Made by a program: the position numbers and the translations under genes. Below, piece by piece: positions 8,930-46,809 of a DNA stretch of 47,657 bases. The stretch comes from an uncultured Pirellula sp. (lineage in GTDB: Bacteria > Planctomycetota > Planctomycetia > Pirellulales > Pirellulaceae), in NCBI GenBank assembly GCA_903930765.1, contig CAIYZV010000337.1, positions 1 through 47,657 of the forward strand, given 5' to 3'. Position 1 is the first letter of the stretch; each line of letters starts with the position of its first letter. The notes below the pieces were generated by a model. It did not search any database and was not told the origin of the DNA. It saw only the letters and a program-made list of their open reading frames with translations.

Positions 8930-8970
8930 CCATCGCGCACGAAAAACCATCTCATCAACGCGCTATCCGC

Positions 8971-9046
8971 CAGCCATGTTAGCGGCATAGCGCCAGCCAT
9001 GTTAGCGGCATAGCGCCAGCCATGTTAGCGGCATCGCGCCAGCCAT
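8971..9046. repeat. 23-bp tandem array between convergent genes fliK and DUF1501
   Basis: Three 23-bp units (starts 8971, 8994, 9017) of CAGCCATGTTAGCGGCATAG plus CGC, and a partial fourth at 9040. Only one base differs (TAG versus TCG in the third). The array fills most of the 130-bp spacer between the ends of two converging genes. No other feature is visible in the spacer. Confidence 0.95.
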
Positions 9047-9059
9047 CCGGTGCTGCGCA

Positions 9060-10574
9060 CTAACTAATAATCTCATGAAGCACTTTGCCATGCACATCGG
9101 TTAGCCGGAAATCGCGGCCCGAATACCGGTACGTCAACCGTTCGTGGTCGAACCCCATCAAATGCAGGATGGTGGCGTGCAAGTCATGAACGCTGGTCGG
9201 TTTGTCTTGGGCTTTGAATCCGAAGTCATCGGTGGCTCCGTAAGCCGTTCCACCACGGACTCCACCGCCAGCCATCCAGACCGAGAATCCATAGTGATTA
9301 TGGTCTCGGCCTGAGCCACCTTCGGAAACGGGAGTGCGACCAAATTCTCCTCCCCACAAGACCAATGTGTCCTCGAGCATGCCACGTTGTTTCAAATCGC
9401 TCAAAAACGCGGCGATCGGCTGGTCGATTTCACCGCTGTTGGTTCTCATGTTCTTTTCGATATCGCCGTGATGGTCCCAAGGTTGGCCGGCACCATGCCA
9501 GAGTTGCACATAACGAACACCTCGTTCGAGCAAACGCCTCGCCATCAAGGTTTGCCGACCGTGCACGGTATCCCCATACATATCGCGAATCGACTGAGGT
9601 TCTTTGCTGATATCAAAAACATCAGCCGCTTCGGTTTGCATCCGAAACGCGAGTTCAAACGACTCAATCCTGGCCTCGAGTCTCGCATCGACTCGTTCCC
9701 CGAGCTGCTTTGCGTTCAATTGCCGCAACAGCTTCAACTGACGGCGCTGGGACTCCAGATTCGCAAAGGGACTCCGAATGTTCTCGATCAATTTTTCAAT
9801 CTCGGAGTTCTTCGGATCCACAAAGGTACCTTGGAACGATCCAGGCAAAAAGCCAGACTCCCAATTCGCAGTATCTTTGATCGGATACCCACCCGGGCAC
9901 ATCGCAATGAAGCCAGGCAAATTCTCGTTCACGGAACCGAGACCGTACATCAACCAAGCCCCTAAGCTGGGACGGGACTGCACCGAATCCCCGCAATTCA
10001 TCAGCATCAGCGAAGGCTCATGGTTGGGGACTTGCGCGTACATCGAGCGAATCACCGCAATCTCGTCGGCATGCGCGGCGGTCTTGGCAAACAGCTCGCT
10101 GATCTCGAGCCCACTTTGCCCATAGCGATCGAATCGGAATGGAGACGGCAGAGCCCCACCCGTACGTCGTTCTGTAAGCAGCGATGTAGGGAGCGGTTTC
10201 CCCGCGTATTCTTTGAGCATCGGCTTCGGATCGAACGTATCGACGTGCGATGGACCACCATTCAAAAAGAAATGGATCATGCGTTTCGCCCGCGGCGCAA
10301 AGTGAGGCGGCCTCGCTCGCAAGGAGTTCCCCATGCTATGCGTACCTGACGTCGCTGGGTTACCCGACGCTGGGTTTCCCGACGCTGGGTTTCCCGACGC
10401 TGTGGCGTTCGAGGAAACACCATCGGCTGGATTCCTGGGATCCTGTCCTAGCAATCGTCCCAGCGACATCAAACCCATCCCCATCCCGGCCCCTTGAAGA
10501 AGCGATCGACGCGACGCGAGTCCTCGGACTGCCGATCCTATTTCCCGATCTGATGCTGAATGCATAGGGTTCAT
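9060..10574 (-). CDS. DUF1501 family protein, Tat-exported
   Basis: Planctomycete-type DUF1501 protein, a sulfatase/alkaline-phosphatase-like fold whose substrate is not known. The N-terminus contains ASRRSLLQGAGMGMGLMSLG, a twin-arginine signal, so export as a folded protein is likely. Family blocks are present: FLNGGPSHVDTFDPKPML after the linker, VLWGGEFGRTP, and GRDHNHYGFSVWMAGGGVRGG, which hold the expected metal-binding Asp/His residues. At 504 aa it has the usual size. A Gly-Asn-Pro-Ala-Ser linker (DNA tandem repeat at 10350-10402) separates the signal from the catalytic domain. It starts 22 bp after the PSCyt1/DUF1549/DUF1553 gene ends, the standard pair in this phylum, probably one operon. 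Confidence 0.9.
   Translation of the reverse strand: MNPMHSASDREIGSAVRGLASRRSLLQGAGMGMGLMSLGRLLGQDPRNPADGVSSNATASGNPASGNPASGNPATSGTHSMGNSLRARPPHFAPRAKRMIHFFLNGGPSHVDTFDPKPMLKEYAGKPLPTSLLTERRTGGALPSPFRFDRYGQSGLEISELFAKTAAHADEIAVIRSMYAQVPNHEPSLMLMNCGDSVQSRPSLGAWLMYGLGSVNENLPGFIAMCPGGYPIKDTANWESGFLPGSFQGTFVDPKNSEIEKLIENIRSPFANLESQRRQLKLLRQLNAKQLGERVDARLEARIESFELAFRMQTEAADVFDISKEPQSIRDMYGDTVHGRQTLMARRLLERGVRYVQLWHGAGQPWDHHGDIEKNMRTNSGEIDQPIAAFLSDLKQRGMLEDTLVLWGGEFGRTPVSEGGSGRDHNHYGFSVWMAGGGVRGGTAYGATDDFGFKAQDKPTSVHDLHATILHLMGFDHERLTYRYSGRDFRLTDVHGKVLHEIIS
10350..10402. repeat. In-frame 15-bp tandem repeat in the DUF1501 gene
   Basis: Units of CGACGCTGGGTTTCC start at 10350 (variant), 10365 and 10380, with a partial copy at 10395. 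On the minus strand they encode Ser-Gly-Asn-Pro-Ala repeated three times in the linker after the Tat signal. Confidence 0.9.
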
Positions 10575-10596
10575 GCCGTGCTATCCTTTGTTCCGG

Positions 10597-13593
10597 TCAG
10601 TCCAAAAATATGGCTTCGTTGGAGATAAGAATCACCTGAGCCAGCAACTCCCGAGGCTTCAATCGCCCCACAGCATTTACACCGGTACCATCGTGATGGG
10701 CGCTAGCGTCGAGATCGGCGGCCGACTCCGCGAGAAACGACGTCGCGATCGCCAGTTCATCCGGCGATGGCGAACGCTGCAGCAGATGCCGATAAAGCAC
10801 CTCGACGTAGCCTTGATCGGTCGCCGTGCTCTCCGCATATTCGCGATCTAAGCGTGAAGCGATCGATTGGCTGCAGGCGGCGACCAAGGGATGATTCAGC
10901 AAAAAAAGGCCTTGTTGAGGTACCGTCGTCTCCGATCGTACCGGCGTATGCAGGTCCGGATTGGCGAAATCAAACATTTGGAAGGTCAGCGGCAGATACT
11001 GTCGATCGATGGTGGTGTAGATAGACCGTCGACTGGTTCCATTGGGCAGCAACACAAAGGCATCGACCGATTTCCCGCCCAGTCTAGAGTCAAGCGTGCC
11101 AGCAGAGACCAGGAACGAATCTCGCATCTGCTCCCACGTCAGACGCTGCTTGGTCGCTCTCCATAAAAGGCGGTTGGCCGGATCCACCTCGCTCGGTTCT
11201 CCCACGGCGACGCTACCCACGGCGACGCCACCCACGGCGACGCTACCCACCGAGGCAACATCCACCGAGGCAACATCCACCGAGGCGGTTGGGGCAAGCA
11301 CCACTTCAGAGCTTCTCTGATATGCCTGACTCATGAGGATCTCGCGGACGAGCCATCGGGTGCTCCAATCATGTTCCATAAAACGTAGGGCGAGATCATC
11401 GAGAAGCTGTGGATGGCTTGGTGCATCGCATCGCAATCCAAAATCGCTTGCGCTTTTCACGAGACCGGCGCCGAACAACTGCTGCCAAACTCGGTTCACC
11501 CACACACGCGCGGTGAGCGGATTCGTTTTCGATACGATCTCTTGGGCCATTTCCAGCCGACCGCTTCCGTGTGCAAAGGGGGTGCGATCTGGTCCCGCGA
11601 CGAGTGACAGGAAACGGCGAGGAACACTTCGACCTTTTTGATTGGGGTCCCCACGCCGAAAAATCCGGCCATCGCTTTTTAAGGGGCGGTCGACCATGAT
11701 TCCGATTTCAGGTGGGTGTTCGGTCGCCTGCAACAGCCAGCGATCCAATTCGCCTTGGGCCTTCCAAATTTCGACGCACGTACCATTGTCCCAGTACCAC
11801 TCCGTACTATCGATGGGTTCCTCGGGAATGTAAAAAGGTGAATCGACGTCGATCAGCAACGCTCTCAAGGATTCCAGCGAGGCATCTTTCGAAGTACGCG
11901 GCGCGACCTCACCGGCACCGACGCGAGCCTCCGATTCCTGCTTCCAACGTTTGGCCGTCTCATCGACCAACTGCCCGTACCGTTCCGCCGTTTCAGCGAT
12001 CGACGCCGGCGTCGTTTCGAACTTGGCCAGAACCGTCGGGTGACAAGCACCTTCTTCGGTTCTCAGTCGCTGCAAAACCTCGGCAGCTCGAGTTGTAAAG
12101 TCGTCTGCGGGCAAGCGAGACAGTTCGTTCCAAACACGAAGTCTTGGGTCTGCGACCGATTCAGGCAGGGCAAAAAACCATTCCCAGCGATGGACCAGTG
12201 CGGGGATTAAATCCTCTTTCGTCGAAAGCTGATTGAACGATCCTTCCGGGTATTTCTCCATCTGAGTCTGGGTTAACAGGTATTCCTTGAATCGCGATTG
12301 GATCCGCGCGTTGGCTTCGGAGCGCTGAACGGCGGTTACCTCCTTGAGTTTCTGCCGACGTTCTTCGAGTCCTGTGAGAAACTCGGCCGAGTGGAAGGCA
12401 AGGTTTTGGTCGAGCGAAACCCGCTGATCGATGCCGCTTTGGAAAACACCGTACAGCGAGTAATAGTCCTCGGTGGGTATCGGGTCAAATTTATGATCGT
12501 GGCATCGCGAGCATCCGACGGTGAGCCCCATCAAACCGCGGAACACCGTGTCGATCCGATCCTCGATGATGTCCGAGGGTATCGCGAGGAAGCGACGTCC
12601 CAAGGTCAAAAACCCCATGGCCGCAAGATCGGGGGAGCCTTGGTCGACCAACTGATCCGCGGCGATCTGCAGCAGGACAAATCGGTCATACGGCAGATCC
12701 TCATTGAATGCGTTGATCACCCAATCGCGGTATGCAGGAGCAAACACAAACGTTCGCTCTTCCCGGCCATAAACGTAGCCCTTAGTGTCGGAGTACCGAG
12801 CGACATCGAGCCAAACTCGACCCCAGCGTTCGCCGTAGGCTTTGTTCGCCAACAACCGATCGACCGCCTTTTGCCAAGCATCCGGACTTAAATCGAAGTC
12901 AAAAGCATGAACCTCGTCAATGGTCGGTGGCAACCCGGTGATCGCATAACTCGCGCGACGCAAACGCTCCCGCCGCGAAGCGATGGGGGCCGAGGCTAGT
13001 GATTCGCGGCGCAGTCCTGAATCGATCCAGGCGTCGACGGTGCGTCCCGTCCCCTCCATTTCCGAGACCGAGGGGATCGCCAATGGTTGAAACGCCCAAT
13101 GCGCTGCAGGATCCATTGCGCGATTACCAGGCGCCGACATCGGTTGTTTTGGCCAAGCAGCACCGCCGCTGATCCAAATGCGCAACGCATCCCGCTGCGC
13201 TGTGTCCAACGCAGGACCTGAATCCTCGGGAGGCATGCGGACCTCAGGATCGTCCGAATTGATACGGCGGAGAAGTTCGCTATCAAGCGGCTCCGACGAA
13301 GAAAGCGCGGGACCACTGTCACCGCCGCGCATCATCCCCTCGCGGGAATCCAATCGCAGGCTCGCCCATTGCTTGTTCGCACCATGGCATCCCAAGCATC
13401 GTTCGGCAAGAACCGGACGAATCTTCGACTCGAAAAAATCCTCGTCCACCTCCGACGCGAACGTTTCGCTCGCAAACGCACCCAATAGCACATTGCTAAG
13501 CAGGTTGCAAAATAGCAACATCGTCACCAACACGTTGGCCACGCGCATCGACCGGATGTACCACGCTTTCAAATTTCGCGCAAACCACGCCAC
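10597..13593 (-). CDS. PSCyt1-DUF1549-DUF1553 (PSD1) family protein
   Basis: Large planctomycete-specific exported protein with a c-type cytochrome motif; its reaction is unknown. After an N-terminal hydrophobic segment (VANVLVTMLLFCNLLSNVLL) comes the Planctomycete cytochrome C domain with CLGCH at residues 66-70 (one haem site) and GGDSGPALSSSEP. DUF1549 (about residues 150-360) includes GCSRCHDHKFDPIPTEDYY, a second CxxCH. DUF1553 (about 660-960) includes NPLTARVWVNRVWQQLFGAGLV and the ending RELLAQVILISNEAIFLD. At 998 aa it is normal for the family. An ATG at 13548 would give a shorter signal peptide. An Ala/Ser/Val/Asp repeat stretch at 11201-11290 interrupts DUF1553. It is followed by the DUF1501 partner. 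Confidence 0.92.
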   Translation of the reverse strand: MAWFARNLKAWYIRSMRVANVLVTMLLFCNLLSNVLLGAFASETFASEVDEDFFESKIRPVLAERCLGCHGANKQWASLRLDSREGMMRGGDSGPALSSSEPLDSELLRRINSDDPEVRMPPEDSGPALDTAQRDALRIWISGGAAWPKQPMSAPGNRAMDPAAHWAFQPLAIPSVSEMEGTGRTVDAWIDSGLRRESLASAPIASRRERLRRASYAITGLPPTIDEVHAFDFDLSPDAWQKAVDRLLANKAYGERWGRVWLDVARYSDTKGYVYGREERTFVFAPAYRDWVINAFNEDLPYDRFVLLQIAADQLVDQGSPDLAAMGFLTLGRRFLAIPSDIIEDRIDTVFRGLMGLTVGCSRCHDHKFDPIPTEDYYSLYGVFQSGIDQRVSLDQNLAFHSAEFLTGLEERRQKLKEVTAVQRSEANARIQSRFKEYLLTQTQMEKYPEGSFNQLSTKEDLIPALVHRWEWFFALPESVADPRLRVWNELSRLPADDFTTRAAEVLQRLRTEEGACHPTVLAKFETTPASIAETAERYGQLVDETAKRWKQESEARVGAGEVAPRTSKDASLESLRALLIDVDSPFYIPEEPIDSTEWYWDNGTCVEIWKAQGELDRWLLQATEHPPEIGIMVDRPLKSDGRIFRRGDPNQKGRSVPRRFLSLVAGPDRTPFAHGSGRLEMAQEIVSKTNPLTARVWVNRVWQQLFGAGLVKSASDFGLRCDAPSHPQLLDDLALRFMEHDWSTRWLVREILMSQAYQRSSEVVLAPTASVDVASVDVASVGSVAVGGVAVGSVAVGEPSEVDPANRLLWRATKQRLTWEQMRDSFLVSAGTLDSRLGGKSVDAFVLLPNGTSRRSIYTTIDRQYLPLTFQMFDFANPDLHTPVRSETTVPQQGLFLLNHPLVAACSQSIASRLDREYAESTATDQGYVEVLYRHLLQRSPSPDELAIATSFLAESAADLDASAHHDGTGVNAVGRLKPRELLAQVILISNEAIFLD
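11201..11290. repeat. Two adjacent in-frame 15-bp tandem families in the PSD1 gene
   Basis: CCCACGGCGACGCTA occurs at 11201, 11216 (one difference) and 11231; directly beside it CCACCGAGGCAACAT occurs at 11247 and 11262 with a partial copy after. Together they encode a Val/Ala/Gly/Ser insertion in DUF1553 on the minus strand. Confidence 0.9.
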
Positions 13594-13900
13594 AGTACGC
13601 TCCTGAAGGCATCAAAATTCGTGGGGAGCTCGGCTCCACAATCCGCAAAAGCAGAGCAACGCTCCGTTTCTTCGGAGCGTTCCACCCAAGCTTGACGATT
13701 CGCTGGGAATAGAACGCATTATGGACTACGCCCAACCGGATGGGAATGGTTACAATCTAGATGGCGGTGGTAACCACATCAAATCCAAGGCATCTCCAAA
13801 GCAACCAGGGAGGGGCTTCATGGTGACTGTGGGGGACATGAAGTGCGATGTTTCGCCTTCCTAGCCGTCGGTCGCTTCCTTCCATTTTTCTCGATGCATT
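13594..13900. other. Divergent spacer with a perfect 9-bp hairpin
   Basis: This 307-bp spacer separates the minus-strand PSD1 gene from the plus-strand cyclase and should hold both promoters; none is recognisable. At 13658-13681 AACGCTCCG and CGGAGCGTT form a perfect 9-bp stem around TTTCTT. No T-run follows on either strand, so it is more likely a leader structure or protein site than a terminator. No convincing gene is seen. Confidence 0.5.
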
Positions 13901-15865: not shown

Positions 15866-15876
15866 CCCGTTGGCGT

Positions 15877-15952: not shown

Positions 15953-15995
15953 GAGTTAGAAAGCCCACTCCTCTCCTTTGCACCCTAAATCCATC

Positions 15996-16859
15996 ATGCG
16001 AATTGCTCGTCGTTGTTTGAAACTCGGTATTGGTTTGGCTACCGGTACGATGCTTGCTGCTCTAAGTACTCCCGCACTTCGCGCCGACGATACGTTGCCT
16101 CGGGTTCGCCCTGACGTGGTGTATGGGCACAAAGACGGGATGGCCTTGACCATGGATGTGATTGAACCCAAGGCAAACCGGAAGGGAATCGCCTTGATGT
16201 TCATGGTCAGCGGTGGATGGGTTTCGACATGGATGCCGGTGGAAACTATGGCGGGACTGTTCCAACCCTTGAGCGATGAAGGATATACCATCATCGCCAT
16301 TCGGCACGGGAGCAGCCCCAAGTATGTCATTCCCGAAATCGTTGAGGATGTTCGCAAAGCGCTCACGCATGTGCACGAACATGCCAGCGAATGGCAAATC
16401 GACCCGAAGAAGCTCGGGGTTTTCGGATTCTCAGCAGGTGGCCATCTCTCGTTGATGCTCGGAACCACGGCCAACGACAAGGCATCCGATGGGGATGGAC
16501 CGAAAATAGCAGCGGTCGCCGCTGTCTTCCCACCCACGGATTTGGCACCTTACAAAACACCGGATAATCCCCTTCAGGAGCAATTCCCGGCCTTGAAATT
16601 TGATTCGAAAAAAACCGACGATTATTCACCGCTCAAACAGGTCAGCAAGGTCGACGCGCCAACGTTGTTGGTCCACGGGGACAAGGATGAACTCGTGCCA
16701 CTCTGGCACAGTGAAAAGATCGACGCGGCATTCAACGAGATCGGTGTTCCGAGCAAGCTCGTCGTGATCAAGGGCGCCGCGCACGGATTCAATGCCGACG
16801 GGAACAAGGTCATGTTCAACTCGATGCTGGATTGGTTCCGGCAGCATTTGACCCCGTGA
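15996..16859 (+). CDS. Exported alpha/beta hydrolase (esterase/lipase-like)
   Basis: Secreted serine hydrolase, probably a carboxylesterase or feruloyl-esterase-like enzyme of the BD-FAE/Abhydrolase_3 group. From ATG 15996 (the frame opens at a TTG at 15978) the N-terminus is a signal peptide, RRCLKLGIGLATGTMLAAL, ending near ALRA-DD. The nucleophile elbow is GFSAGGH (Gly-x-Ser-x-Gly). The acid is in LVHGDKDELVP and the His in KGAAHGF. An oxyanion segment FMVSGGW replaces the usual HGGG. About 287 aa, normal for the family. Its TGA stop lies inside the first unit of a 22-bp tandem array. The substrate is not determinable from sequence. Confidence 0.85.
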   Translation: MRIARRCLKLGIGLATGTMLAALSTPALRADDTLPRVRPDVVYGHKDGMALTMDVIEPKANRKGIALMFMVSGGWVSTWMPVETMAGLFQPLSDEGYTIIAIRHGSSPKYVIPEIVEDVRKALTHVHEHASEWQIDPKKLGVFGFSAGGHLSLMLGTTANDKASDGDGPKIAAVAAVFPPTDLAPYKTPDNPLQEQFPALKFDSKKTDDYSPLKQVSKVDAPTLLVHGDKDELVPLWHSEKIDAAFNEIGVPSKLVVIKGAAHGFNADGNKVMFNSMLDWFRQHLTP

Positions 16860-16987
16860 GCCCGTAGGAATGGCACCGTGAGCCCGTAGGAATGACACCG
16901 TGAGCCCGTAGGAATGACACCGTGAGCCCGTAGGAGTGGCACCGTGAGCCCGTAGGAGTGGCACCGTGAGCCCGTAAGAATGGCACA
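16856..16987. repeat. 22-bp tandem array, six units, overlapping a stop codon
   Basis: Six head-to-tail 22-bp units begin at 16856, 16878, 16900, 16922, 16944 and 16966. The consensus is GTGAGCCCGTAGGAATGGCA followed by CC; variants differ at one or two bases. The first unit contains the TGA of the hydrolase gene. The array occupies the spacer between two convergent genes. Confidence 0.95.
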
Positions 16988-17071
16988 GTAGGATGCCATC
17001 GAGCCGCTCACGATTTCGAGCAGTTCACTGGCGGTTAGGTGTGCGAGAACCAAGCATGTCACCCGGCGTGG

Positions 17072-18925: not shown

Positions 18926-18936
18926 GATTTGGAGAT

Positions 18937-21086: not shown

Positions 21087-21144
21087 CTGCACTATCTCCC
21101 GCCAAACGTTCGCATGCGCATGGCGCATTTTCGTAGGCGGATCG

Positions 21145-25786: not shown

Positions 25787-25798
25787 CATTCCCACTGT

Positions 25799-25843
25799 TT
25801 TTCCCGTGTGGAATTTTCCCGTATTGAATTTTCCCGTGTAGAA
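25799..25843. repeat. 15-bp tandem repeat, three units
   Basis: TTTTCCCGTGTGGAA, TTTTCCCGTATTGAA and TTTTCCCGTGTAGAA at 25799, 25814 and 25829, in the short spacer just past the end of dprA (minus strand). Confidence 0.9.
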
Positions 25844-25868
25844 ATCCAATCGCGCCGGGATCGACACG

Positions 25869-27870: not shown

Positions 27871-28344
27871 ATGGCTCAAGTTCGCAAATTGGTCCTTCAC
27901 ATCGACGACGATCCTGACTTCTTAAAGTTGGCCGCATACCATCTTCAGAAGGAAGGGTATGAAGTGGTCAGCGTCCAGGACCCCCAAAAAGCCATGGATT
28001 CATTGTTGCGAAGTGGTGCCCGTGTGGTGCTACTCGACATCGACATGCCCGGCAAAGACGGACTTACTCTGCTTCGTGAGATCAAGCTTCGGGATTCGGG
28101 GATTCAGGTCACGATGTGCACAGGGATGGTTTCGATGCAGACCGTTCTTCGTTCCACGTCGCTCGGGGCCGAAGGATTGCTCTTCAAGCCCTTGAGCGAT
28201 GTGAAAAAACTTTCCGAAGCCGTTTCGATCTCGTTTCGGAAGATCGAGAAATGGTGGGAATCCCTCGCAGAGTGGAAAGCAATCAACGCATCGATTCGAC
28301 CTCTCGCGACGTCTTCTCCGACAGTAGCCGCGCTATCCAAGTGA
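27871..28344 (+). CDS. Single-domain response regulator (second copy)
   Basis: Receiver-only protein, about three quarters identical by eye to the one at 24807-25268 over 132 residues. The same key residues are present: LHIDDDP, phospho-acceptor Asp56 in LLDIDMPGKDG, Thr in MCTGM, Lys in LFKPLSD. The Trp-rich tail FRKIEKWWESLAEWKAIN is also conserved, so it is a functional part of this family and not a random extension. 157 aa. Its last 12 bp overlap the end of the convergent ABC transporter gene. It is separated from its paralogue by HPt and dprA, so the pair probably arose by an old local duplication. Confidence 0.87.
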   Translation: MAQVRKLVLHIDDDPDFLKLAAYHLQKEGYEVVSVQDPQKAMDSLLRSGARVVLLDIDMPGKDGLTLLREIKLRDSGIQVTMCTGMVSMQTVLRSTSLGAEGLLFKPLSDVKKLSEAVSISFRKIEKWWESLAEWKAINASIRPLATSSPTVAALSK

Positions 28345-30856: not shown

Positions 30857-31300
30857 TTATCGACCGTAGATCGAGACGCCCCAACCACCACCACCCCAGC
30901 CACCACCACCATAGGATGGGCCACTGGGAAACCCGCCTCCGCCGAACGACGGCCCTGCAGGCCAGTTTCCACCGTTGAATCCGTTGCCGTAATAACTGTT
31001 GTTGAAACCGTTATTGAAATTCCCGTAGTAGGATCCGTAATTGCCGTTGCCGTAATTGCCGTTGCCGTAATTCCCATAGCCGAGCGGCCGACCGTATGCA
31101 TACGGGGTCACGATCATCGGACGGTTGCTGATTACCTGCCCTCCGTAACGATACCCATGGCCATGATGATGCGAGGGAGCGCAGTGCGACGGAGCCCGAA
31201 AGCGGTTGTGATCCGCCTTTGCTTCGGAAAATACGTTGCCTACGCTGAACACCCCTACGGCGATCCCAAGCCCCCAACCCATCCAATTTCGAAATAACAT
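30857..31300 (-). CDS. Exported Gly/Asn/Tyr-rich low-complexity protein
   Basis: Unrecognised 147-aa protein. ATG 31300 has a strong GGAGG 8 nt upstream, one of the best ribosome sites in the window, which sets the start (the frame opens further, to 31390). The N-terminus is a signal peptide (WMGWGLGIAVGVFSVGNVFS, then EAKADH). The mature part starts His-rich (HCAPSHHHGHGYRYGG), then carries repeated Asn-Tyr-Gly-Asn-Gly units and Phe/Tyr-Gly-Gly-Gly-Gly segments and ends SIYGR. Such sequences are typical of disordered surface or matrix proteins, and the His cluster could bind metal. It is transcribed divergently from the ABC ATPase gene. Confidence 0.75.
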   Translation of the reverse strand: MLFRNWMGWGLGIAVGVFSVGNVFSEAKADHNRFRAPSHCAPSHHHGHGYRYGGQVISNRPMIVTPYAYGRPLGYGNYGNGNYGNGNYGSYYGNFNNGFNNSYYGNGFNGGNWPAGPSFGGGGFPSGPSYGGGGWGGGGWGVSIYGR

Positions 31301-34385: not shown

Positions 34386-34407
34386 CCTTGGGTACACCTA
34401 GCCGCCC

Positions 34408-34511
34408 GTTGAAAAACGATTGAACTGGTAGCGGTGCAGCGCAAGCCGCCCGGTTTCTCCTAAAGCCAGACTTACCGGACGGCTTGCGCCGTGCCGCTTC
34501 CGTTTTTCAAT
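34408..34511. repeat. 104-bp long inverted repeat (palindromic element)
   Basis: Outer arms GTTGAAAAACG (34408-34418) and CGTTTTTCAAT (34501-34511) and inner arms at 34431-34454 and 34474-34497 (20 of 24 positions pair; core GCGCAAGCCG / CGGCTTGCGC) surround a 19-nt loop. It sits between the ends of two convergent genes. It could be a strong bidirectional terminator or a dispersed REP/MITE-like intergenic element. There is no transposase. Confidence 0.85.
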
Positions 34512-34518
34512 AGCCTGC

Positions 34519-34560
34519 TAGACCCAGCACTTTAGACCCAGCGCTTTAGACCCAGTACCT
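34519..34560. repeat. 14-bp tandem repeat, three units, overlapping the end of murB
   Basis: TAGACCCAGCACTT, TAGACCCAGCGCTT and TAGACCCAGTACCT at 34519, 34533 and 34547. The last unit runs into the murB stop codon (34559-34561). It lies beside the 104-bp palindrome in the same convergent spacer. Confidence 0.9.
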
Positions 34561-36636: not shown

Positions 36637-38322
36637 TTAGGAAGCGCATCCGCAGCTTGGAGCTGCATCGCATCCGCTGCTAGCAGCTGCACAACCGCTG
36701 TGGCTGTGGCAACCGCCGTGGCATCGGAGACCTCGGAGGAGGTTTCGGAGGCGACCATTGAACAGGCCGTTACCACCGAAGAGACCGTTTCCGAGACGAC
36801 CACCACCGATACCAGCTCCGGAACCTGCACATGGATCGCAGCTAACGGTTACTGGAACTTCTTCGCAGACAACCTTAGGAACGCATCGGGTGTAGGTGTA
36901 AGGAACGCAAGTCTTGACGCACTTCGCAACCTTGATGGTGTCGCAGTAGGTCACTGGCTTGCAAACGGTGTAAGGAACCATCTTGGTGCGGCACTCCTTC
37001 ACGATCTTGCAGGTCGTGTAGGTGTATGGGCAGCTCTTTTGCTCGCAAACCCAGTTGCAAACGGTGTAGCAAACATCTTTAACTCGTTGTTCGCAAACCA
37101 TCTTGCAGGTCTTGTAGCAAACGGTCTTTTGACGGCATTCTGAAACCATTTTGCAGGTGGTGTAGGTGCAAACCTTGGTCTTTGGCTCGCATACCCAGTT
37201 GCAGACCGTGTAGGAAACTTCCTTCGATCGGCATTCTGGAACCATCTTGCAGGTGGTGTAGGAAACCGTCTTGCTGCGGCATTCTGGAACCAGCTTGCAA
37301 ACGTTGTAGGTAACCGTCTTGGTGCGGCATTCTGGAACGCACTTGGTAACGGTGTACGGAACAACCTTGCTCAGGCATTCGGTTTCATACTTGACGCAAT
37401 TGATGGTCTTCTCTTCGCAAGTTGGAACCCAAACCTTCTTGCAAACCTTCTTCGGTGGGCACTGTACGCATTCGACTCGGCACTCACCTGGGCAATAAAC
37501 GTTTCGGCAGGTCGAAGCATCGAATGTCCAAGTACCTGGTTCGCGAACGGTTCGGCGAACGACGGCACCTGGGACTTCTTCTTCAACTGTTTGCCAGCTT
37601 CCACCCTTGACCGTAACGGTCTTGGTGTAGTTGACAGGCTTGGTAACCGTGTAGTTGACCGTGCGCTCACGGGTTTCGGTAACGGGAACCATAACCTTGT
37701 AGTTGATCACTTGCTCGCGAGCTTCCATGACCCGATTCATCACGGTGTAGTTGATCACTTTTTCGTGGGTTTCACGAACAGGTGTCATCACTGTGTAGTT
37801 AACGGTCTTGGTCTTGGTCTCGTAAACAGGACGGCGAACCGTGTAGTTGATCACCTTTTCGTGGGTTTCACGAACGGGAACCATCACCGTGTAGTTCACA
37901 ACCTTGCTGTGTGTTTCGTACACTGGGCGAGAGACGTTGTACGTCACTTGCTTGGTACGGGTTTCATACACAGGTCGGCGAACGGTGTAGTTACGAACGC
38001 CAGTGTGTGTTTCACGTACAGGTACATTGACCGTGTAGGAAACTTCACGCTGATGTTGTTCACGCTCGTAGCGAACTCGCTGAACTTGTTTGTCTTCGTA
38101 CACGAGTTGGTTCACCATTTTGGTGGCGTTGACCGTTTCGTTCTCGTATACAACTTTTTTCACAGTCTTCATAACGGTGTAGGTCGATGGGCCACAAGGA
38201 TCCACGACATTACAACCGCAGTTTTCATAGCTGATCGCGCCGCCATATGCAGCATGAGCAGCTCCAGCACCAAAAGCGGACAAAAGACCCGCAAGGGCTG
38301 GCAGAGCCAAAAGCTTTCTCAT
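36637..38322 (-). CDS. YTV-repeat, Cys-rich exported surface protein
   Basis: Probable cell-wall/surface structural protein of the planctomycete YTV type. Signal peptide LALPALAGLLSAFGAGAAHA, then about nine 16-residue repeats without Cys (pattern THEKVINYTVRRPVYE), a linker with GGSWQTVEEEVPGAVVRR, and about nine 16-residue repeats with one to four Cys each (pattern CRSKTVSYTTCKMVPE). The C-terminus is a Gly/Asn/Leu segment (GNGLFGGNGLFNGRLRN) and a His/Cys/Ser/Ala-rich tail. 561 aa, over 50 Cys by rough count, so extensive disulfides are likely. Codons look strongly biased (AAG, GTC/GTT, TAC), suggesting high expression. It is flanked by long spacers and a terminator, so probably monocistronic. 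Confidence 0.85.
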   Translation of the reverse strand: MRKLLALPALAGLLSAFGAGAAHAAYGGAISYENCGCNVVDPCGPSTYTVMKTVKKVVYENETVNATKMVNQLVYEDKQVQRVRYEREQHQREVSYTVNVPVRETHTGVRNYTVRRPVYETRTKQVTYNVSRPVYETHSKVVNYTVMVPVRETHEKVINYTVRRPVYETKTKTVNYTVMTPVRETHEKVINYTVMNRVMEAREQVINYKVMVPVTETRERTVNYTVTKPVNYTKTVTVKGGSWQTVEEEVPGAVVRRTVREPGTWTFDASTCRNVYCPGECRVECVQCPPKKVCKKVWVPTCEEKTINCVKYETECLSKVVPYTVTKCVPECRTKTVTYNVCKLVPECRSKTVSYTTCKMVPECRSKEVSYTVCNWVCEPKTKVCTYTTCKMVSECRQKTVCYKTCKMVCEQRVKDVCYTVCNWVCEQKSCPYTYTTCKIVKECRTKMVPYTVCKPVTYCDTIKVAKCVKTCVPYTYTRCVPKVVCEEVPVTVSCDPCAGSGAGIGGGRLGNGLFGGNGLFNGRLRNLLRGLRCHGGCHSHSGCAAASSGCDAAPSCGCAS

Positions 38323-40362: not shown

Positions 40363-40394
40363 TCGCGGTACAGATCGATTCGATGGCTATCGGG

Positions 40395-40452: not shown

Positions 40453-42703
40453 CGACCGAAACATTATCGACGTAGAACTCGGCGTCGGTCGAGTTTCCGA
40501 ACAGTCCGGGACTACCAGTGACGTTCGGTGTGAGATCCTCACCTTGGATGGTCCAGTCGGCGGGTTCTTGATCCCCCTTCTTCCAGACCTTGCCTCTCAA
40601 GATAGCCTTTCCATCCGCGGTCTCGCTACGGAACTTCAAGACATACCACGTATTGGCTTGCCACTCGTAAGGCATGGTGACCGCAAAGCGTTGCTCGAGC
40701 AGAGACACCCATGATCGGATCTGCAGTCGCTGTGCTCCTTCGAGCGCGAGCGTGTAGCGTTGGTTCACAAGTCCCATGTCTGGCAGTTTTGTCGTCGGGA
40801 CTTTGTTCTTGGTATCGAGCGCGTAGAACTCCGCTTGGACCGTGTAGTCGTGCAGTTTCGGTAAACCGATGAAGCCTTGACTGCGCGTGCCACGGGGAAT
40901 CGTACTGATCTTGACCAAGCCGTTTCCTCCGGTTGGGAGTTCCGCGGGTTGGTGCCGATAGGCCATCCCGTTCCAATGAAGAGGCACTTTCTTATCTTCG
41001 AAATCGAAAGTCCATGGGAGCGGCGGCAAGATACGGGCCCGCGCGGAGCTCTTCAACTCACCATGGGTGGCTTGGAGCATGACGGCTGTTCCGGTCTGGC
41101 TTTCCCCAGGCACGAACACATGGTCATCGCTTACTTGGCCGCCACCTTCTGCGACTACCGTCGCTTGTGGAACCAACCCCACGAACTGACCGATCTTGTT
41201 GTAACCTCGAACTTGAAGTTTGACCTTTTGTCCCGGTTGCATCAACAACTCCACGGGGCACACTTGGATGTGCGCGATCTCTTTGTCGGTCACCGGTGGC
41301 TCTTGTGGCCCTTCCGGCAACTTCAAATCTCCCGCAGGCTTCGCATCGGCAGTTCCAATGCAGTAAAGGGCTTTGCTCGTGGGCAAGTACAATCGTCCGT
41401 TGGAAGCGGCAAACGAACCAAAGATTTCGCTATTGTCGTTGAGCCGCATTTGGCCGAGGACCTTGATCTCCGTATCGGTGGGTTCCAAACACCAAACGCG
41501 GCCGGTGTTCTCTCCGATATAAATCTTTCCTCCGGAGACCACGGGGGAGCCAAACATGTTTCGGCCGAGCTTCTTTTCCACCTCGACTTCACCCGTTTTT
41601 GCGTTCACACCAAACATCGCGCTACCATCGTCCACAAAGTAGATCCGGTTGCCAATCTTCACCGGACTACTGCGGCTGACCGTCTTTTTGGGTACCTTCC
41701 AAAGCAGCTTGTCCTCGCCAATGTCCCCGCTGGTATTTCCATCGAATGCAAAGACTGCACCTAGGATTGTTCGGTCGGTTTCATTCTGTTCCCCGTGCCC
41801 CATGTAGATGATCCCTTCGTCGATCAACGGAGCGACATTCAAACCCCGCGGGGAGGCTTGGTACTTCCAAATCACCTTGCCTGTTCGAGGCTGCAATGCA
41901 TAAACAGCCCCATCGGCCGCACCGAGAACCATCGCGGCTTGTCCGTTCAGAACCGTGTAGATAGGCGTGCTGTAGGTCGTATCCTCTGGACGAACCCGCG
42001 TGCTCATCAACCACACAGCAGCGCCGGTGTTCTTGTCCATCGCGAGGAAACGGTGGCCAGGAACCGCAGTCTGGTCCCAGCCGGTCATGACCCCACTGAT
42101 GATGACCATGTCCTCAAACAAGGTTGGAAAATTCGTTCGACCACCGTACGTGGATAGCATCCCGTACTCTTCGAGCATCGAATGCTCCCAAACGATCTTG
42201 CCCGTCTTCCCGTCCAGACATTGGAACGTACATCCCAACCCCAACACATAAACACGGTCGGTTTCAGGGTCCGCGATCACGCTCGCCCATCCAACACGCT
42301 CCGAAGGAGCATCGGACAAATAAATGTTGTGCACACTTTCCCAGATCAACTCCCCCGTCTCCGCATTGAGGCAAACGGTCTTTTCGCCTTCCTTCTTAGT
42401 GTCTGGTTCCGCGCGGCATACGATGTAGACACGCCCATTCATGACCACCGGCGCCGAACGCGTGGCGTATTCTTCCTTGCGCCACAGAATGTTCTCTCCA
42501 TCGGCGGAAAAAGTCGTCGGAAACGCGGTCTCGACGCTCTGACCATTCTGCATTGGGCCACGCCAATGCGGCCAATCTGTGGCCTTGCTCCCCTTGGGCG
42601 TACCCTCCTGAGCAACTCCAACGGATACAAACGCCGAGACTGACGCAGCAGCCATCGACCAAGCCAAACACAACGCAACAATCCGACGTACTCTGGTTTT
42701 CAT
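40439..42703 (-). CDS. Exported PQQ-type beta-propeller protein
   Basis: Secreted or periplasmic eight-bladed-propeller-like protein of the planctomycete PQQ-binding-like family; cofactor binding and reaction are not known. Signal peptide IVALCLAWSMAAASVSAFV. The family start DWPHWRGPMQNGQS follows, then PQQ/pyrrolo repeats such as YIVCRAEPDTKKEG, KTVCLNAETGELIWESVHN, QCLDGKTGKIVWEHSM and VYALQPRTGKVIWKYQA. From about residue 480 there is a linker and then a beta-rich domain (about 560-750) resembling a DUF1080/LamG-type lectin fold, ending NSTDAEFYVDNVSVVPNQ. 754 aa. It is transcribed away from parAB. Confidence 0.85.
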   Translation of the reverse strand: MKTRVRRIVALCLAWSMAAASVSAFVSVGVAQEGTPKGSKATDWPHWRGPMQNGQSVETAFPTTFSADGENILWRKEEYATRSAPVVMNGRVYIVCRAEPDTKKEGEKTVCLNAETGELIWESVHNIYLSDAPSERVGWASVIADPETDRVYVLGLGCTFQCLDGKTGKIVWEHSMLEEYGMLSTYGGRTNFPTLFEDMVIISGVMTGWDQTAVPGHRFLAMDKNTGAAVWLMSTRVRPEDTTYSTPIYTVLNGQAAMVLGAADGAVYALQPRTGKVIWKYQASPRGLNVAPLIDEGIIYMGHGEQNETDRTILGAVFAFDGNTSGDIGEDKLLWKVPKKTVSRSSPVKIGNRIYFVDDGSAMFGVNAKTGEVEVEKKLGRNMFGSPVVSGGKIYIGENTGRVWCLEPTDTEIKVLGQMRLNDNSEIFGSFAASNGRLYLPTSKALYCIGTADAKPAGDLKLPEGPQEPPVTDKEIAHIQVCPVELLMQPGQKVKLQVRGYNKIGQFVGLVPQATVVAEGGGQVSDDHVFVPGESQTGTAVMLQATHGELKSSARARILPPLPWTFDFEDKKVPLHWNGMAYRHQPAELPTGGNGLVKISTIPRGTRSQGFIGLPKLHDYTVQAEFYALDTKNKVPTTKLPDMGLVNQRYTLALEGAQRLQIRSWVSLLEQRFAVTMPYEWQANTWYVLKFRSETADGKAILRGKVWKKGDQEPADWTIQGEDLTPNVTGSPGLFGNSTDAEFYVDNVSVVPNQ

Positions 42704-43081
42704 TTTGCACGGCTGGTTTTAAAAGGAGGGTATCACCACTCAGACACAGGGCTCGTTCCAAGCCCAACGGAAATCTGCAAAGGCGATCGAAAAAGGCAAA
42801 GGAGTCCGAACCATCGGGTAAGCCCATCAGTATGGCCCATCAGTCTGGCCAGTATCCGCTTCCGGTGACCAACCTTTGCCGCTCTCCGCATTGTAGCAGA
42901 CCCCCAGCAGACCTAAAGTCCTTGCGAAAACCCTTGGGAAAGGTACGGCAAAGTCCATGTTTGCCCGAAAAGTTTGCGTGAATCGTGGAACTGGCATTCC
43001 CCCCAGCCCCGTAGTTTTCGTAATTTCCCAAATGCGTTCCTCGCAACCTCATTCCAATCCAGCGAGAACTCCCGAAGGGCC
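42704..43081. other. Divergent spacer between the PQQ gene and parA
   Basis: 378 bp. GCCCATCAGTATG and GCCCATCAGTCTG form a 13-bp direct duplication at 42822 and 42835. No parS-like 16-bp palindrome (TGTTTCACGTGAAACA) was found here. Both promoters are expected in it; no gene is convincing. Confidence 0.6.
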
Positions 43082-43828
43082 ATGGCAAGAATCTTTTGTG
43101 TTGCAAATCAGAAAGGTGGAGTCGGCAAGACCACCACTGCCGTGAACCTGGCATGGACCTTCGCCATGGCCGGGCAACGGACGCTGCTGGTCGACCTCGA
43201 CCCACAATGCAACGCAACCAGCGGACTCGGCTTTTCGCCCGCGGCCAGACACCCTCTCCTCATCGACGACCCGCTCCGGGAAAGCATCCAAAACACGCAC
43301 CAGCCCAACCTGCAACTCCTCAAGGGCTGCAGGACCTTTCAAGATGTCGATCAGCTCGAAAAAGGGATATCCACACGGCGAACCCTTCTCAAGCAACACC
43401 TCGACGCGGGCATGGGCGGGTTCGACGCCGTCTTCATCGATTGCCCCCCATCGCTCGGGGAGCTGACCCAAGCAGCCTTGGCATCGAGCACCGAAGTCCT
43501 CATGCCCATCCAATGCGAATACTACGCCATGGAAGGGCTCACCCAAATGATCCACGTCATCCGCGACATCATGCACCATCAGCCCGGAAAACTCACCTTT
43601 GGTGGGATCCTGTTAACGATGGTCGACCCGCGTTTTGAACTTACCGCCGAAGTCGATTCCGAAGTTCGCGACTTCTTCGGCGATATCGTCTTTGACACAG
43701 TGATCCCTCGCGATATCGCTATCTGCGAGTCACCCAGCCATGGACAACCCGTTATTTCCTACGCCCCTCGCTCGCGGGGGACTCGAGCCTATATCGAACT
43801 CTGCATGGAGGTTTTAAATCATGACTAA
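43082..43828 (+). CDS. parA: Chromosome partitioning ATPase ParA (Soj)
   Basis: Deviant-Walker ATPase that drives segregation of the origin region with ParB. ATG 43082 follows GAAGGG; the upstream frame from 42974 is spurious. The motif is ANQKGGVGKTTTAVNLAW with the signature Lys, then LLVDLDPQCNATSGLGF, VFIDCPPSLGELTQAALAS and PIQCEYYAMEGLTQM, all typical of chromosomal Soj proteins. 248 aa, a short form lacking the N-terminal HTH of plasmid ParA. It overlaps parB by 8 bp, so the two are coupled. Chromosomal parAB usually lies near the origin, which suggests the window might too (inference). Confidence 0.93.
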   Translation: MARIFCVANQKGGVGKTTTAVNLAWTFAMAGQRTLLVDLDPQCNATSGLGFSPAARHPLLIDDPLRESIQNTHQPNLQLLKGCRTFQDVDQLEKGISTRRTLLKQHLDAGMGGFDAVFIDCPPSLGELTQAALASSTEVLMPIQCEYYAMEGLTQMIHVIRDIMHHQPGKLTFGGILLTMVDPRFELTAEVDSEVRDFFGDIVFDTVIPRDIAICESPSHGQPVISYAPRSRGTRAYIELCMEVLNHD

Positions 43829-44966
43829 AGACCGACGACTCGGGCGCGGACTAGCCGCACTCTTGGGTACCCCCATCGAGGAATCCAACTCCCAAGACAA
43901 CGCTAGCATTGCATCCCCCAAGGACACGAACGCGAACAGTTCGCCAGCAAACGCTAGCACTGCCACAGCGCGCGGCGTGGATCCGATAGCACGAAACCAA
44001 ACCATCCGGGCGCTGACCGACGAAGCCCATCAGCGCACCGCTGCATCCGAACATGCTTCCCGCAACGAGGAGACTGGGCCCGTCACGGTCCCGATGGAAA
44101 ACTACGCGCCCGCGAAAACCACAACCGCAAACCACGAGCTCAGTTTGCAGATCGCCGTCGATCAAATCGACGCGAACCCGTTCCAGCCTCGCCGACATTT
44201 CAGCGAAACGGAACTGCAATCGTTGGCCGAGAGTATCAAGGAACATCAGCAACTTCAGCCGATCCTGGTCCGACGTGTCGGCGAACGCTATCAACTCATC
44301 AGCGGCGAACGCCGACTCCGTGCGACCATCCGAGCCGGGCTAACGACCATTCGCGCGGAAATCCGTCAAGCCGACGATCGATTGGTCGCGGAACTCGCTA
44401 TCATCGAAAACCTCCAACGCAAAGACTTGAATGCGATCGAGAAGGCGATGTCGTTCAAACGCTACCTCACCGAGCATCAATGCACCCAAGACGATCTCGC
44501 GAAGCGTCTGAAAATCGATCGCAGCACCATCGCCAACATGATGCGTCTGCTCGAACTCCCAGAACAAATCACCGATGCCATTCAAAGGGACGAAATCACC
44601 GCAGGCCATGCCAAAGCCCTTTTAAGCCTGGGAAGCGTCAAAGAACAAGTCGCCACCATGCAACGGATTCGTGAAGAAGGCTGGAGTGTGCGGGAAACCG
44701 AAGCGGTCGTGGCCGATGCGGTCGCCGAAGCTGCCGCTTCCGAAGAGGGATTCCTCAAAGCCGTCCCTCGTCGCAAACCCTCCAAATCCGATCAGCTCGC
44801 ATCCCTGGAACGGGACTTAAAGATGTCCATGGGGACCCGAGTCGATATCAGCCAAACCAGCCGAGGTCGCGGCCGTATCACCATCCACTTCACCAGCATC
44901 GAGGAATTCGACCGAATCCGTCATGTCCTGATGAACACAACCCAGCGTTCTCAAAAGGCGGCTTAG
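43821..44966 (+). CDS. parB: Chromosome partitioning protein ParB (Spo0J)
   Basis: CTP-dependent DNA clamp that loads at parS and spreads. Residues 1 to about 108 are low complexity (Ser/Ala/Asn/Thr-rich) after the ParA-stimulating start MTKDRRLGRGLAALLG. The CTPase/N domain starts IDANPFQPRRHFSETELQSL and contains ISGERRLRATIRAGL and ENLQRKDLNAIEKAMSF. A helix-turn-helix is in TQDDLAKRLKIDRSTIANMM. The C-terminal dimer domain is about residues 315-381 (GRGRITIHF). 381 aa; most ParB are 280-340, the difference being the N-terminal linker. It overlaps parA by 8 bp, and a small membrane protein gene follows 4 bp later. Confidence 0.93.
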   Translation: MTKDRRLGRGLAALLGTPIEESNSQDNASIASPKDTNANSSPANASTATARGVDPIARNQTIRALTDEAHQRTAASEHASRNEETGPVTVPMENYAPAKTTTANHELSLQIAVDQIDANPFQPRRHFSETELQSLAESIKEHQQLQPILVRRVGERYQLISGERRLRATIRAGLTTIRAEIRQADDRLVAELAIIENLQRKDLNAIEKAMSFKRYLTEHQCTQDDLAKRLKIDRSTIANMMRLLELPEQITDAIQRDEITAGHAKALLSLGSVKEQVATMQRIREEGWSVRETEAVVADAVAEAAASEEGFLKAVPRRKPSKSDQLASLERDLKMSMGTRVDISQTSRGRGRITIHFTSIEEFDRIRHVLMNTTQRSQKAA

Positions 44967-44970
44967 TTCC

Positions 44971-45246
44971 ATGACGAACAACCTGATCTCGCTCGCCGTC
45001 ACTGCGATTGCAACCTTGATCGCCATCAAATGCTTGCTTTCGCTCATGTTCCTGCTTCGAGATCGATTGCAAACTCTGCTCAAGAAACACTACCAAGAAA
45101 AAATGGCGGAGGTGAAGAAACGCAGAGCTATCCGAGAATTGCGAATAGTGATGCGCGAGCGCAAAGCTCGAGAGTTGGCTGCCGCTCAGCAAACGATCCC
45201 GTTCCCCGTTGAAGAATCCGATCCGAACACAGCCAAGGCCGCGTGA
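44971..45246 (+). CDS. Small membrane protein with one TM helix and a charged helix
   Basis: Unrecognised 91-aa protein. Residues about 5-28 are hydrophobic (LISLAVTAIATLIAIKCLLS), followed by a very basic amphipathic helix (about 30-70, rich in Lys/Arg/Glu) and an acidic tail ending SDPNTAKAA. It starts 4 bp after the parB stop, so it is translated in the same operon and could link ParB or the nucleoid to the membrane (inference). It has no Cys cluster and no enzymatic motif. Codon use is like its neighbours. Confidence 0.7.
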   Translation: MTNNLISLAVTAIATLIAIKCLLSLMFLLRDRLQTLLKKHYQEKMAEVKKRRAIRELRIVMRERKARELAAAQQTIPFPVEESDPNTAKAA

Positions 45247-45377
45247 GCTAGCATTCCCCACAACCTCAACAAGCACTTCGGTCACCCCATCACTCGCATC
45301 CTGATTCCACTCGAAAACGACCGATTGCTCCATAACTTGTCCAACCAATTTCCCTTCATGCGTTTGCGAGTCGCCCT

Positions 45378-46667
45378 ATGTCCCTAGTTCTTTTCGAAGA
45401 TGCCCAGTGCGAACGACTGGCTCCCGTTACCTACGCTAGGCTCGCGTGCAATATCCACTGCGGCAGCTTTCGACTCGCGGATGTAGTTGAGCAGCTTCAA
45501 ACCCCTGTCCATGCGATCGTACGGCAGCATCTGGAGTCCCAGCAGCGGATCGATCACCCTCTGCTTCAGACACTCGATTCGATCCCACCCGAGAACGCAA
45601 CGAGTCGCCCAACGATCATGCTCAACGCTCGGTTGACTCCATCGATTGCGACCCGCGAAGGAATCGCCGCTGCGCTCCAGCACGGCCGCGAACACCCCAA
45701 CGAATCGTTGGCAATTCTCGACAGAGACCACGTCGCAGCGATCATCAACCCTCCTTGGTCCTATGCGGATCTCCAACTCGCAGGTTTTGACGGCTTGAAA
45801 CAACTGCTGGAATCCGCAAAGGATTTCGCAACTCCCACCAATGCGCCCAAACTGACAACGTTCGCTTTCCCGCATGAAATCGTCGCCTGCAATATGGCTT
45901 GCATCGAGGAAAATCTGGAACTCAGAATCCGCAGCGGACTCGAGAACCATTCGCTCACACAACTCCAAGATGGCGTGTTCGTCGCACAAGGAGCCCAAAT
46001 CGGCGAATACGTACTGACCGATACCCGAAAAGGACCCATTATCGTTGAACGAGGTGCGCAAATTGGCCCATACACCTTGCTCCGTGGACCAATCTACATC
46101 GGACCAAAAACGAAAGTCCTCGAGCACTCCGCGATCAAAGATTGCGTGACGCTAGCGCATACCACCAAGATCGGTGGAGAAGTCGAAGCGTCGATCGTGG
46201 AACCCTTCACCAACAAACAGCATCACGGGTTTCTAGGCCACAGCTACTTAGGTAGTTGGATCAACTTGGGCGCAGGAACTTGCAACAGCGACTTGAAGAA
46301 CACCTATGGCACCGTCAACATGGAATACAGCCTCGGCAAAGCCGCAACGCAGATGCAATTTTTAGGGTGCATCATGGGTGATTATTCAAAAACGGCGATC
46401 AACACCGGTATCTTTACAGGCAAAGTCATCGGCGTCTGCAGCATGATGTACGGATTCGTCACCAGCAACGTTCCTAGCTTCGTGAATTACGCGAGGCTAT
46501 TCGGACAAGTGGCCAGTCTCCCACCTGAGGTCATGGTCAGCACACAGCAACGCATGTTCGCACGACGCGATGTCGCGCAACGAGGTTGCGATATCCAACT
46601 GATCTACGACATGCACCGCATCACACAATCCGAACGAGATCGACTCGGCGAAGCCCTCGTGTTTTAG
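45378..46667 (+). CDS. GlmU-like sugar-nucleotidyltransferase with left-handed beta helix
   Basis: Predicted bifunctional-type enzyme of the alternative GlmU family (nucleotidyltransferase plus acyltransferase of UDP-GlcNAc synthesis in several bacterial phyla). The N-terminal ~200 residues start LVLFEDAQCERLAPVTYARLA instead of the GxGTRM loop of classical GlmU, which is the rule in that alternative group. From about residue 200 hexapeptide repeats form a left-handed beta helix: QIGEYVLTDTRKGPIIVERG, IYIGPKTKVLEHSAIKDCVT, and YLGSWINLGAGTCNSDLKN, with the acyl-transfer His in KQHHGFLGHS. 429 aa. Its substrate pair is inferred from the family. It ends before the 21-bp array. Confidence 0.8.
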   Translation: MSLVLFEDAQCERLAPVTYARLACNIHCGSFRLADVVEQLQTPVHAIVRQHLESQQRIDHPLLQTLDSIPPENATSRPTIMLNARLTPSIATREGIAAALQHGREHPNESLAILDRDHVAAIINPPWSYADLQLAGFDGLKQLLESAKDFATPTNAPKLTTFAFPHEIVACNMACIEENLELRIRSGLENHSLTQLQDGVFVAQGAQIGEYVLTDTRKGPIIVERGAQIGPYTLLRGPIYIGPKTKVLEHSAIKDCVTLAHTTKIGGEVEASIVEPFTNKQHHGFLGHSYLGSWINLGAGTCNSDLKNTYGTVNMEYSLGKAATQMQFLGCIMGDYSKTAINTGIFTGKVIGVCSMMYGFVTSNVPSFVNYARLFGQVASLPPEVMVSTQQRMFARRDVAQRGCDIQLIYDMHRITQSERDRLGEALVF

Positions 46668-46697
46668 AGGAAACGCTTCGATTTGGAATCGGCAGCA

Positions 46698-46802
46698 CGG
46701 TGCTTGTGCCCAGCGATACGGGGCTTGTGCCCAGCGATACAGGGCTTGTGCCCAGCGATACAGGGCTTGTGCCCAGCGATACGGGGCTTGTGCCCAGCGA
46801 TA
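46698..46802. repeat. 21-bp tandem array of mini-hairpins, five units
   Basis: Five 21-bp units start at 46698, 46719, 46740, 46761 and 46782, with consensus CGGGGCTTGTGCCCAGCGAT then A. Four of the five contain GGGC-TTGT-GCCC, a small perfect hairpin (the first has GGTGC at its start). The array fills the spacer between the convergent GlmU-like and adk genes. Confidence 0.95.
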
Positions 46803-46809
46803 CGGGCAA

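Follow-up and report, generated by a model that had tools for sequence, protein, structure and literature searches.

Short tandem-repeat arrays between convergent genes of an uncultured Pirellula: young minisatellites with a modest positional bias, probably filtered by selection

Introduction

Several described bacterial systems resemble the subject of this study, the tandem-repeat arrays between convergently transcribed genes on contig CAIYZV010000337.1 of an uncultured Pirellula sp. (47,657 nucleotides, hereafter the window). In lake Planctomycetota, noncoding deletions have been tied to intergenic tandem repeats (PMC9426551). Those variable repeats are like the present ones, and slippage was proposed for them, but the parts of that report considered here contain no period spectrum, gene-orientation bias or between-species array birth. 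The Escherichia coli topA R168C mutator also makes head-to-tail duplications of short unique sequence, 2–19 bp in size, according to the part of PMC6954433 consulted, whereas the periods here are 12–24 bp, microhomology is found in two of three genomes, and TopA has kept both R168 and R35. Subirana and Messeguer (2019; PMC6749651), in the portion of their survey used here, listed Rhodopirellula baltica among the satellite-rich species, with 4.06 satellites/Mb of at least four repeats. Their satellites are likewise short-unit tandem arrays, whereas private units and orientation bias are tested here; the densities are not directly comparable because two or more copies are counted in our work. 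Repetitive extragenic palindromic (REP) elements also lie mostly between convergent and codirectional genes (PMC3733652, part consulted). However, they are dispersed palindromes, whereas the arrays here are private and unstructured beyond repetition, and it is a stem-loop at 34395–34520 that is REP-like instead. Among the matches listed in our literature searches we found no account of a bounded 12–24 bp spectrum, nor, in their titles and abstract openings, of an orientation bias of tandem arrays.

Our analysis indicates that the arrays are probably young private minisatellites, made by a lineage-wide duplication process that selection filters, and that their positional habit is then mainly survival bias.

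Materials and Methods

The window is the whole of contig C337 in a draft genome of 5.74 Mb and 527 contigs, labelled G000; relatives carry labels of the same kind. For one window protein, the best named matches are to planctomycetes, an uncultured Pirellula among them. The DNA read, mostly as long contigs or blocks, amounted to 0.97 of 5.74 Mb for G000, 0.65 of about 6.2 Mb for G018 and 0.80 of 6.53 Mb for G005. Spacer borders were taken from our own gene caller, whose starts are uncertain; stops were used for the junctions, and the flanking genes were assigned by Pfam. Arrays, including those of the window, were called with Tandem Repeats Finder (TRF). Those with a period below 9 or above 100, those with fewer than 1.9 copies, and weaker overlapping rows were dropped; the upper period limit was 60 instead of 100 in the TRF density comparison and the gene-end counts. 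Spacer counts, the stop-distance profile and the length-stratified test were run with starts as called and with extended starts, and later analyses used extended starts. The length-stratified test covered spacers of 10 bp or more. The window was left out of the spacer counts, the stratified odds ratios, the pooled perfect-pair test and the 13-mer test. Stretches of G018 syntenic with G000 were left out of the stratified odds ratios, the pooled perfect pairs and the gene-end counts; the last also leave out short or weakly scored genes. G018 and G000 were aligned over eight blocks (about 154 kb, 87–94% identity; 90% in the window's two blocks).

Results

The preliminary description of the window had reported arrays with 23-, 22-, 14- and 21-bp units in four long convergent spacers, and TRF recovered all four. 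Spacer 1 (8930–9059) lies between a FliK-like gene (+) and a DUF1501 gene (−), with flanking stops at 8929 and 9060; its array (8968–9046) has 3.4 copies of a 23-bp unit at 98% match. At the same junction G018 has one 23-bp unit, together with an array of its own (19 bp, 3 copies) over the left gene's stop codon, at the opposite end of the spacer. Spacer 2 (16860–17071; stops 16859 and 17072) separates an alpha/beta hydrolase gene (+) from a gene for a large protein of unknown function (−). Its array (16854–16986; 22-bp unit, 6.0 copies, 95% match) begins with a unit that overlaps the left gene's stop codon. About 4.6 units of 22 bp, diverged from those of the window, are found in G018, where TRF calls them as 44 bp in 2.3 copies. 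Spacer 3 (34386–34558; stops 34385 and 34559), between an AstA-like gene (+) and a MurB-like gene (−), carries 2.6 copies of a 14-bp unit at 34519–34555 (95% match; three copies with the partial one counted). G018 has a single 14-bp unit there and a separate 14-bp duplication elsewhere in the spacer. Spacer 4 (46668–46809; stops 46667 and 46810), between a sugar nucleotidyltransferase-like gene (+) and an adenylate kinase gene (−), holds 5.2 copies of a 21-bp unit at 46697–46806 (96% match), where G018 has a diverged array (43 bp, 2.0 copies) and G007 an unrelated 16-bp unit in about 3.4 copies, as read by eye. Junctions 2 and 3 show no array in G007, where the gene pairs are the same.

In our gene calls the inventory of convergent junctions differs somewhat. 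The 58-bp junction (21087–21144) was found as described, but only one junction overlaps (28333–28344), not two, and a fifth array-bearing convergent spacer of 82 bp (25787–25868), absent from the earlier list, has to be added. It lies between a small open reading frame without Pfam match (+) and a DprA-like gene (−), and its array (25799–25843) has 3.0 copies of a 15-bp unit, one more than in G018.

All these copies adjoin directly, with no unique spacers between them, so they do not form an array of clustered regularly interspaced short palindromic repeats (CRISPR). Head-to-tail units of about 10–100 bp, and copy numbers that differ from G018 at all five junctions, a difference between species, are as in minisatellites or variable-number tandem repeats (VNTRs). 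The dispersed palindromic unit of REP elements and REPINs is not found in the arrays, whose units are private and fold like arrays of shuffled units. Among the 51 arrays of G000 that lie in aligned DNA, 22 are paired with an array at the corresponding G018 position, whereas the other 29 are not, and tandem duplications make up 22 of the 96 indels of at least 8 bp in this alignment. A mobile family was rejected, in line with the preliminary description: 13-mers common with the rest of the 0.97 Mb occur in 131 of 231 arrays against 347 of 526 plain-spacer controls. The arrays thus have private units, were born in place and turn over between close relatives.

Related arrays occur elsewhere in the window as well, as had been noted; it holds 52 partly overlapping TRF rows with a score of at least 30. 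The search for perfect tandem pairs of period 12–150 gave 123 in 0.97 Mb of G000, window included (127/Mb), 76 in 0.65 Mb of G018 (117/Mb), 25 in 0.80 Mb of G005 (31/Mb) and none in 45 kb of G007. Other taxa (80 loci, 1.16 Mb) gave 12 pairs (10/Mb), including one of period 29 and one of 39. All 117 G000 pairs inside genes or spacers have periods of 12–24, though the search ran to 150, and in the same scan the pairs in genes or spacers of G018 and G005 are confined to this range. A scan of periods 4–60 with a slightly different filter added one pair of period 30 (G018) and one of period 28 (G005). Its counts in G000 were 3 at period 10, 2 at 11, a peak of 38 at 15 and 1 at 24, and shuffled G000 sequence contained zero perfect pairs from period 10 up. 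No shuffled sequence had a pair of period 12 or longer.

TRF arrays were found at 239/Mb in G000, against 5/Mb in dinucleotide-shuffled G000, and at 229/Mb in G018 and 96/Mb in G005. Small samples gave 89/Mb in G007 (4 in 45 kb), 247/Mb in G010 (4 in 16 kb) and 300/Mb in G014 (6 in 20 kb). The loci from other Planctomycetes, Verrucomicrobia and Acidobacteria (69 of the 80) showed 29–44 arrays/Mb, with single loci at 222–441. The high densities in relatives indicate that the duplication process is not confined to the window's own species. In G005 (L107–L126, L147–L166) several spacers carry 21-bp arrays that are nearly identical, and 7-bp pairs are in excess, so that part of the TRF count of this genome comes from dispersed families. 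The oddity behind the arrays is a process of tandem duplication that acts across the whole genome.

Perfect-pair density in G000 was 1.60 per kb in convergent, 0.58 in codirectional and 0.48 in divergent spacers, and 0.06 in coding DNA. Multiples of 3 dominate the periods of pairs in genes (43 of 53) compared with spacers (25 of 64), which points to a frame filter in genes. Period 15 accounts for 25 of the 53 coding pairs in the 0.97 Mb. In-frame coding duplications of 15 bp are also seen in the window, for example at 10353–10402, 11201–11286 and 31035–31072.

For the 0.92 Mb of G000 outside the window (TRF score at least 50, period 9–100, extended starts), arrays were found in 23 of the 101 convergent spacers, 48 of the 357 codirectional ones and 14 of the 100 divergent ones; the densities were 2.54, 1.19 and 0.62 arrays per kb of non-array DNA, respectively. 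The corresponding numbers for spacers of at least 100 bp were 16 of 39, 36 of 143 and 14 of 84. With G000, G018 and G005 (three samples from one genus) pooled, length-stratified label permutation gave an odds ratio of 1.82–3.58 for convergent versus codirectional spacers (p 0.0025 to 0.0005) and 1.84–4.74 for convergent versus divergent ones (p 0.054 to 0.0005); for G000 alone the length-corrected convergent enrichment had p 0.04 to 0.0025 by setting. Perfect pairs, pooled, numbered 36 in 43.6 kb of convergent, 50 in 138.5 kb of codirectional and 15 in 60.2 kb of divergent spacer, a convergent to codirectional density ratio of 2.3 (p = 3e-4; G018 alone, p = 0.14).

Part of this excess depends on gene starts. 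In codirectional spacers, with starts as called, arrays are sparse in the 100 bp next to starts, and removal of this start-adjacent DNA lowers the convergent excess: the pooled length-stratified odds ratio drops to 1.36–2.10 (p 0.093 to 0.0035). Single genomes are then often not significant (G000 p 0.12–0.21, G018 0.13–0.33, G005 0.31–0.0075), and in the unstratified test of convergent versus codirectional spacers G005 reaches significance at no start-removed setting (ratios 1.2–2.0). Of the positional habit proposed earlier, convergent enrichment after length correction stands in the sampled part of G000, but in this genome alone it is not significant without the 100 bp next to starts. The convergent bias is real but modest, a tendency and not a rule, and most convergent spacers have no array.

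The pattern of an array at every long convergent junction does not hold outside the window, with 16 of 39, and is partly circular because an array adds to spacer length. The same gene pairs are about 81 bp (junction 2) and about 12 bp (junction 3) apart in G007, versus 212 and 173 bp in the window. Since arrays are so common in the genome, the run of four is less remarkable than at first sight: at the rate of the other long convergent spacers, 4 of 4 has p of about 0.03, and this is before counting the patterns that might have been noticed. Even so, chance clustering in the window combined with a circular choice of "long" junctions is a most improbable explanation, for the enrichment recurs without the window when the three genome samples are pooled, though single samples are often not significant.

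The convergent enrichment could also reflect function. The arrays might be transcription terminators or insulators of converging genes in which array length, not sequence, acts. Junction 4, with arrays of differing sequence in three species, would fit this, as would the somewhat higher frequency with which convergent arrays are common to G018. However, compared with arrays built from shuffled units, the 36 convergent arrays of G000 have no better folding (mean z −0.02; codirectional 0.20 and divergent 0.05, n = 111 in all), and intrinsic termination was rejected. Against dinucleotide shuffles the convergent mean z was −0.77, but other classes were similar (−0.68 and −0.59), so this better folding is a by-product of repetition. 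A simple pattern scan found no intrinsic-terminator-like site (G+C-rich hairpin followed by a T run) in the four named spacers, and no sharp array peak was seen at a fixed distance from the stop codon. Moreover, 78 of 101 convergent spacers have no array, and neither do junctions 2 and 3 of G007. Given no extra folding, no terminator-like site, no gene-end excess and relatives without arrays, the termination or buffering role suggested in the preliminary description finds no backing here, and we consider such a role very unlikely. A mark at the 3′ end of all genes was rejected too, as arrays in codirectional G000 spacers are about equally dense at all distances from the stop.

A different question is whether convergence itself makes arrays, that is, whether polymerase collision, supercoiling or R-loops between genes that face each other increase the rate of tandem duplication there. 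Perfect pairs, presumably the youngest, have 2.3 times the density in convergent spacers that they have in codirectional ones, while substitutions outside arrays are only 1.6 times more frequent, and de novo tandem duplications of 2–19 bp are described for an E. coli topA point mutant in the part of PMC6954433 used here. But the coding ends of converging genes have no excess: arrays were found in the last 150 coding bases of 5 of 447 gene ends facing a convergent neighbour versus 17 of 864 others, and in the last 300 bases of 8 of 331 versus 14 of 594. Non-tandem indels show a like convergent excess (about 2.1), the two TopA residues known as mutator sites, R35 and R168, are preserved in the 11 planctomycete sequences checked, and arrays are frequent in divergent and codirectional spacers too. 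Collision scars are therefore an unlikely main source of the bias.

Once arrays are masked, divergence from G018 is 0.188 substitutions per site in convergent spacers (95% bootstrap 0.136–0.261), compared with 0.113 (0.087–0.139) near starts and 0.119 (0.092–0.153) far from starts in codirectional spacers. Divergent DNA far from starts is also fast (0.212; 0.090–0.305), which fits tolerance and not convergence as such. Gap events outside arrays numbered 10.2 per kb (5.1–16.5) in convergent spacers versus 6.4 near and 5.6 far from starts in codirectional ones. Non-tandem indels of at least 8 bp occurred at 5.4/kb in convergent (13 in 2,393 aligned bases) and 2.6/kb in codirectional DNA (20 in 7,828); this roughly 2.1-fold excess is near the factor seen for arrays. 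The faster evolution of convergent spacers outside their arrays makes tolerance the probable source of most of the bias.

The duplication mechanism was considered through gene content and pair structure. Ku was found in none of six genomes at E <= 0.001 (G000 is 96% complete), which argues against Ku end joining, and Ku-dependent duplications were rejected. Loss of MutS or RecJ was likewise rejected, both being present in all six genomes, as was a mutator of the topA R168C/R35P type, since both residues are intact in the N-terminal part of TopA from G000, G018, G005 and eight others. Strict two-copy pairs had at least 2 extra shared bases in 30 of 46 cases in G000 and 17 of 33 in G018, where chance would give about 16%, as estimated by hand with all bases equally frequent. 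This excess is as slippage at microhomology predicts.

Some other features of the window were recorded. The main occupant of spacer 3 is a 126-bp dispersed stem-loop element (34395–34520) with related copies in G018; the whole spacer folds at −70.9 kcal/mol (z −6.0). Eleven places with the element were inspected: the window, three in sampled G018 contigs and seven more in G018. Five are convergent (the window and its G018 counterpart included), five codirectional, one at a contig end and none of the 11 divergent; one codirectional copy overlaps a called gene start, and two placements rest on weak gene calls. The element is a candidate bidirectional terminator or REP-like element. The gene at 36637–38322 (−) contains a long coding array (37035–37920) with 48- and 96-bp repeats and has arrays at matching places in G018, whereas the 21-bp coding array at 1460–1560 (4.8 copies) in the gene at 962–1885 (−) has no counterpart at the matching place there. 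Among the matches listed, the DUF1501 gene (9060–10574, −) has many partial DNA matches elsewhere in five related genomes, which suggests that it belongs to a large paralogous family.

Discussion

We favour a general duplication process filtered by selection, to which convergent transcription may add a smaller mutational contribution. A lineage-wide mutational process would copy 12–24 bp of local unique sequence head to tail everywhere in the genome, probably by strand slippage at short microhomologies, and internal slippage would later lengthen the arrays. Selection would then purge almost every out-of-frame event in genes and the majority of in-frame ones, as well as many next to promoters and starts. 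With neither promoter nor ribosome-binding site, and with little else that could be damaged, convergent spacers would be where arrays persist and lengthen. The bounded period spectrum, the order of densities among classes and the faster evolution of masked convergent DNA are observations, whereas slippage and a selective filter that causes the bias are what we infer.

Several points weigh against this account. The estimate of constraint comes from 20 convergent spacers with 1,761 unmasked bases and overlapping intervals. A residue is left after removal of start-proximal DNA (pooled odds ratio 1.4–2.1, with p between 0.09 and 0.004 depending on the setting), so that tolerance may not be the whole explanation. 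Of the aligned spacers with an array in G000, 7 of 11 convergent ones also have an array in G018, against 4 of 11 codirectional and 2 of 5 divergent ones, the window included; the numbers are small, but greater retention of convergent arrays could mean use. Microhomology is not in excess in G005 (2 of 11), and where the extension is long, some "two-copy" pairs may hold part of a third copy instead of ancestral microhomology. Finally, simple slippage predicts that short units are commonest, and a peak near 15–17 with few at 10–11 needs a second cause, such as removal of small loops by mismatch repair.

Microhomology slippage together with such repair would account for the lower size bound only; the upper bound of 24 is not covered. 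A bolder idea is that the lineage has a natural mutator for tandem duplications that works with a molecular ruler: some enzyme or defect would copy 12–24 bp (mostly 14–17) of unique DNA head to tail, most often where transcription units converge, and would drive spacer evolution in freshwater planctomycetes. We regard it as speculative and rather doubtful.

As judged under the preferred reading of duplication and selective survival, the arrays look like tolerated by-products more than devices of gene control. An apparent rule such as "a repeat at every long convergent junction" can reflect survival bias instead of a signal, which calls for caution. How tandem repeats arise from non-repeating sequence is called unknown in the part of PMC6954433 consulted. 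A natural lineage in which perfect short duplications exceed 100 per Mb, unit size has sharp bounds and a close relative often has the single unit is a ready system for this question of repeat birth.

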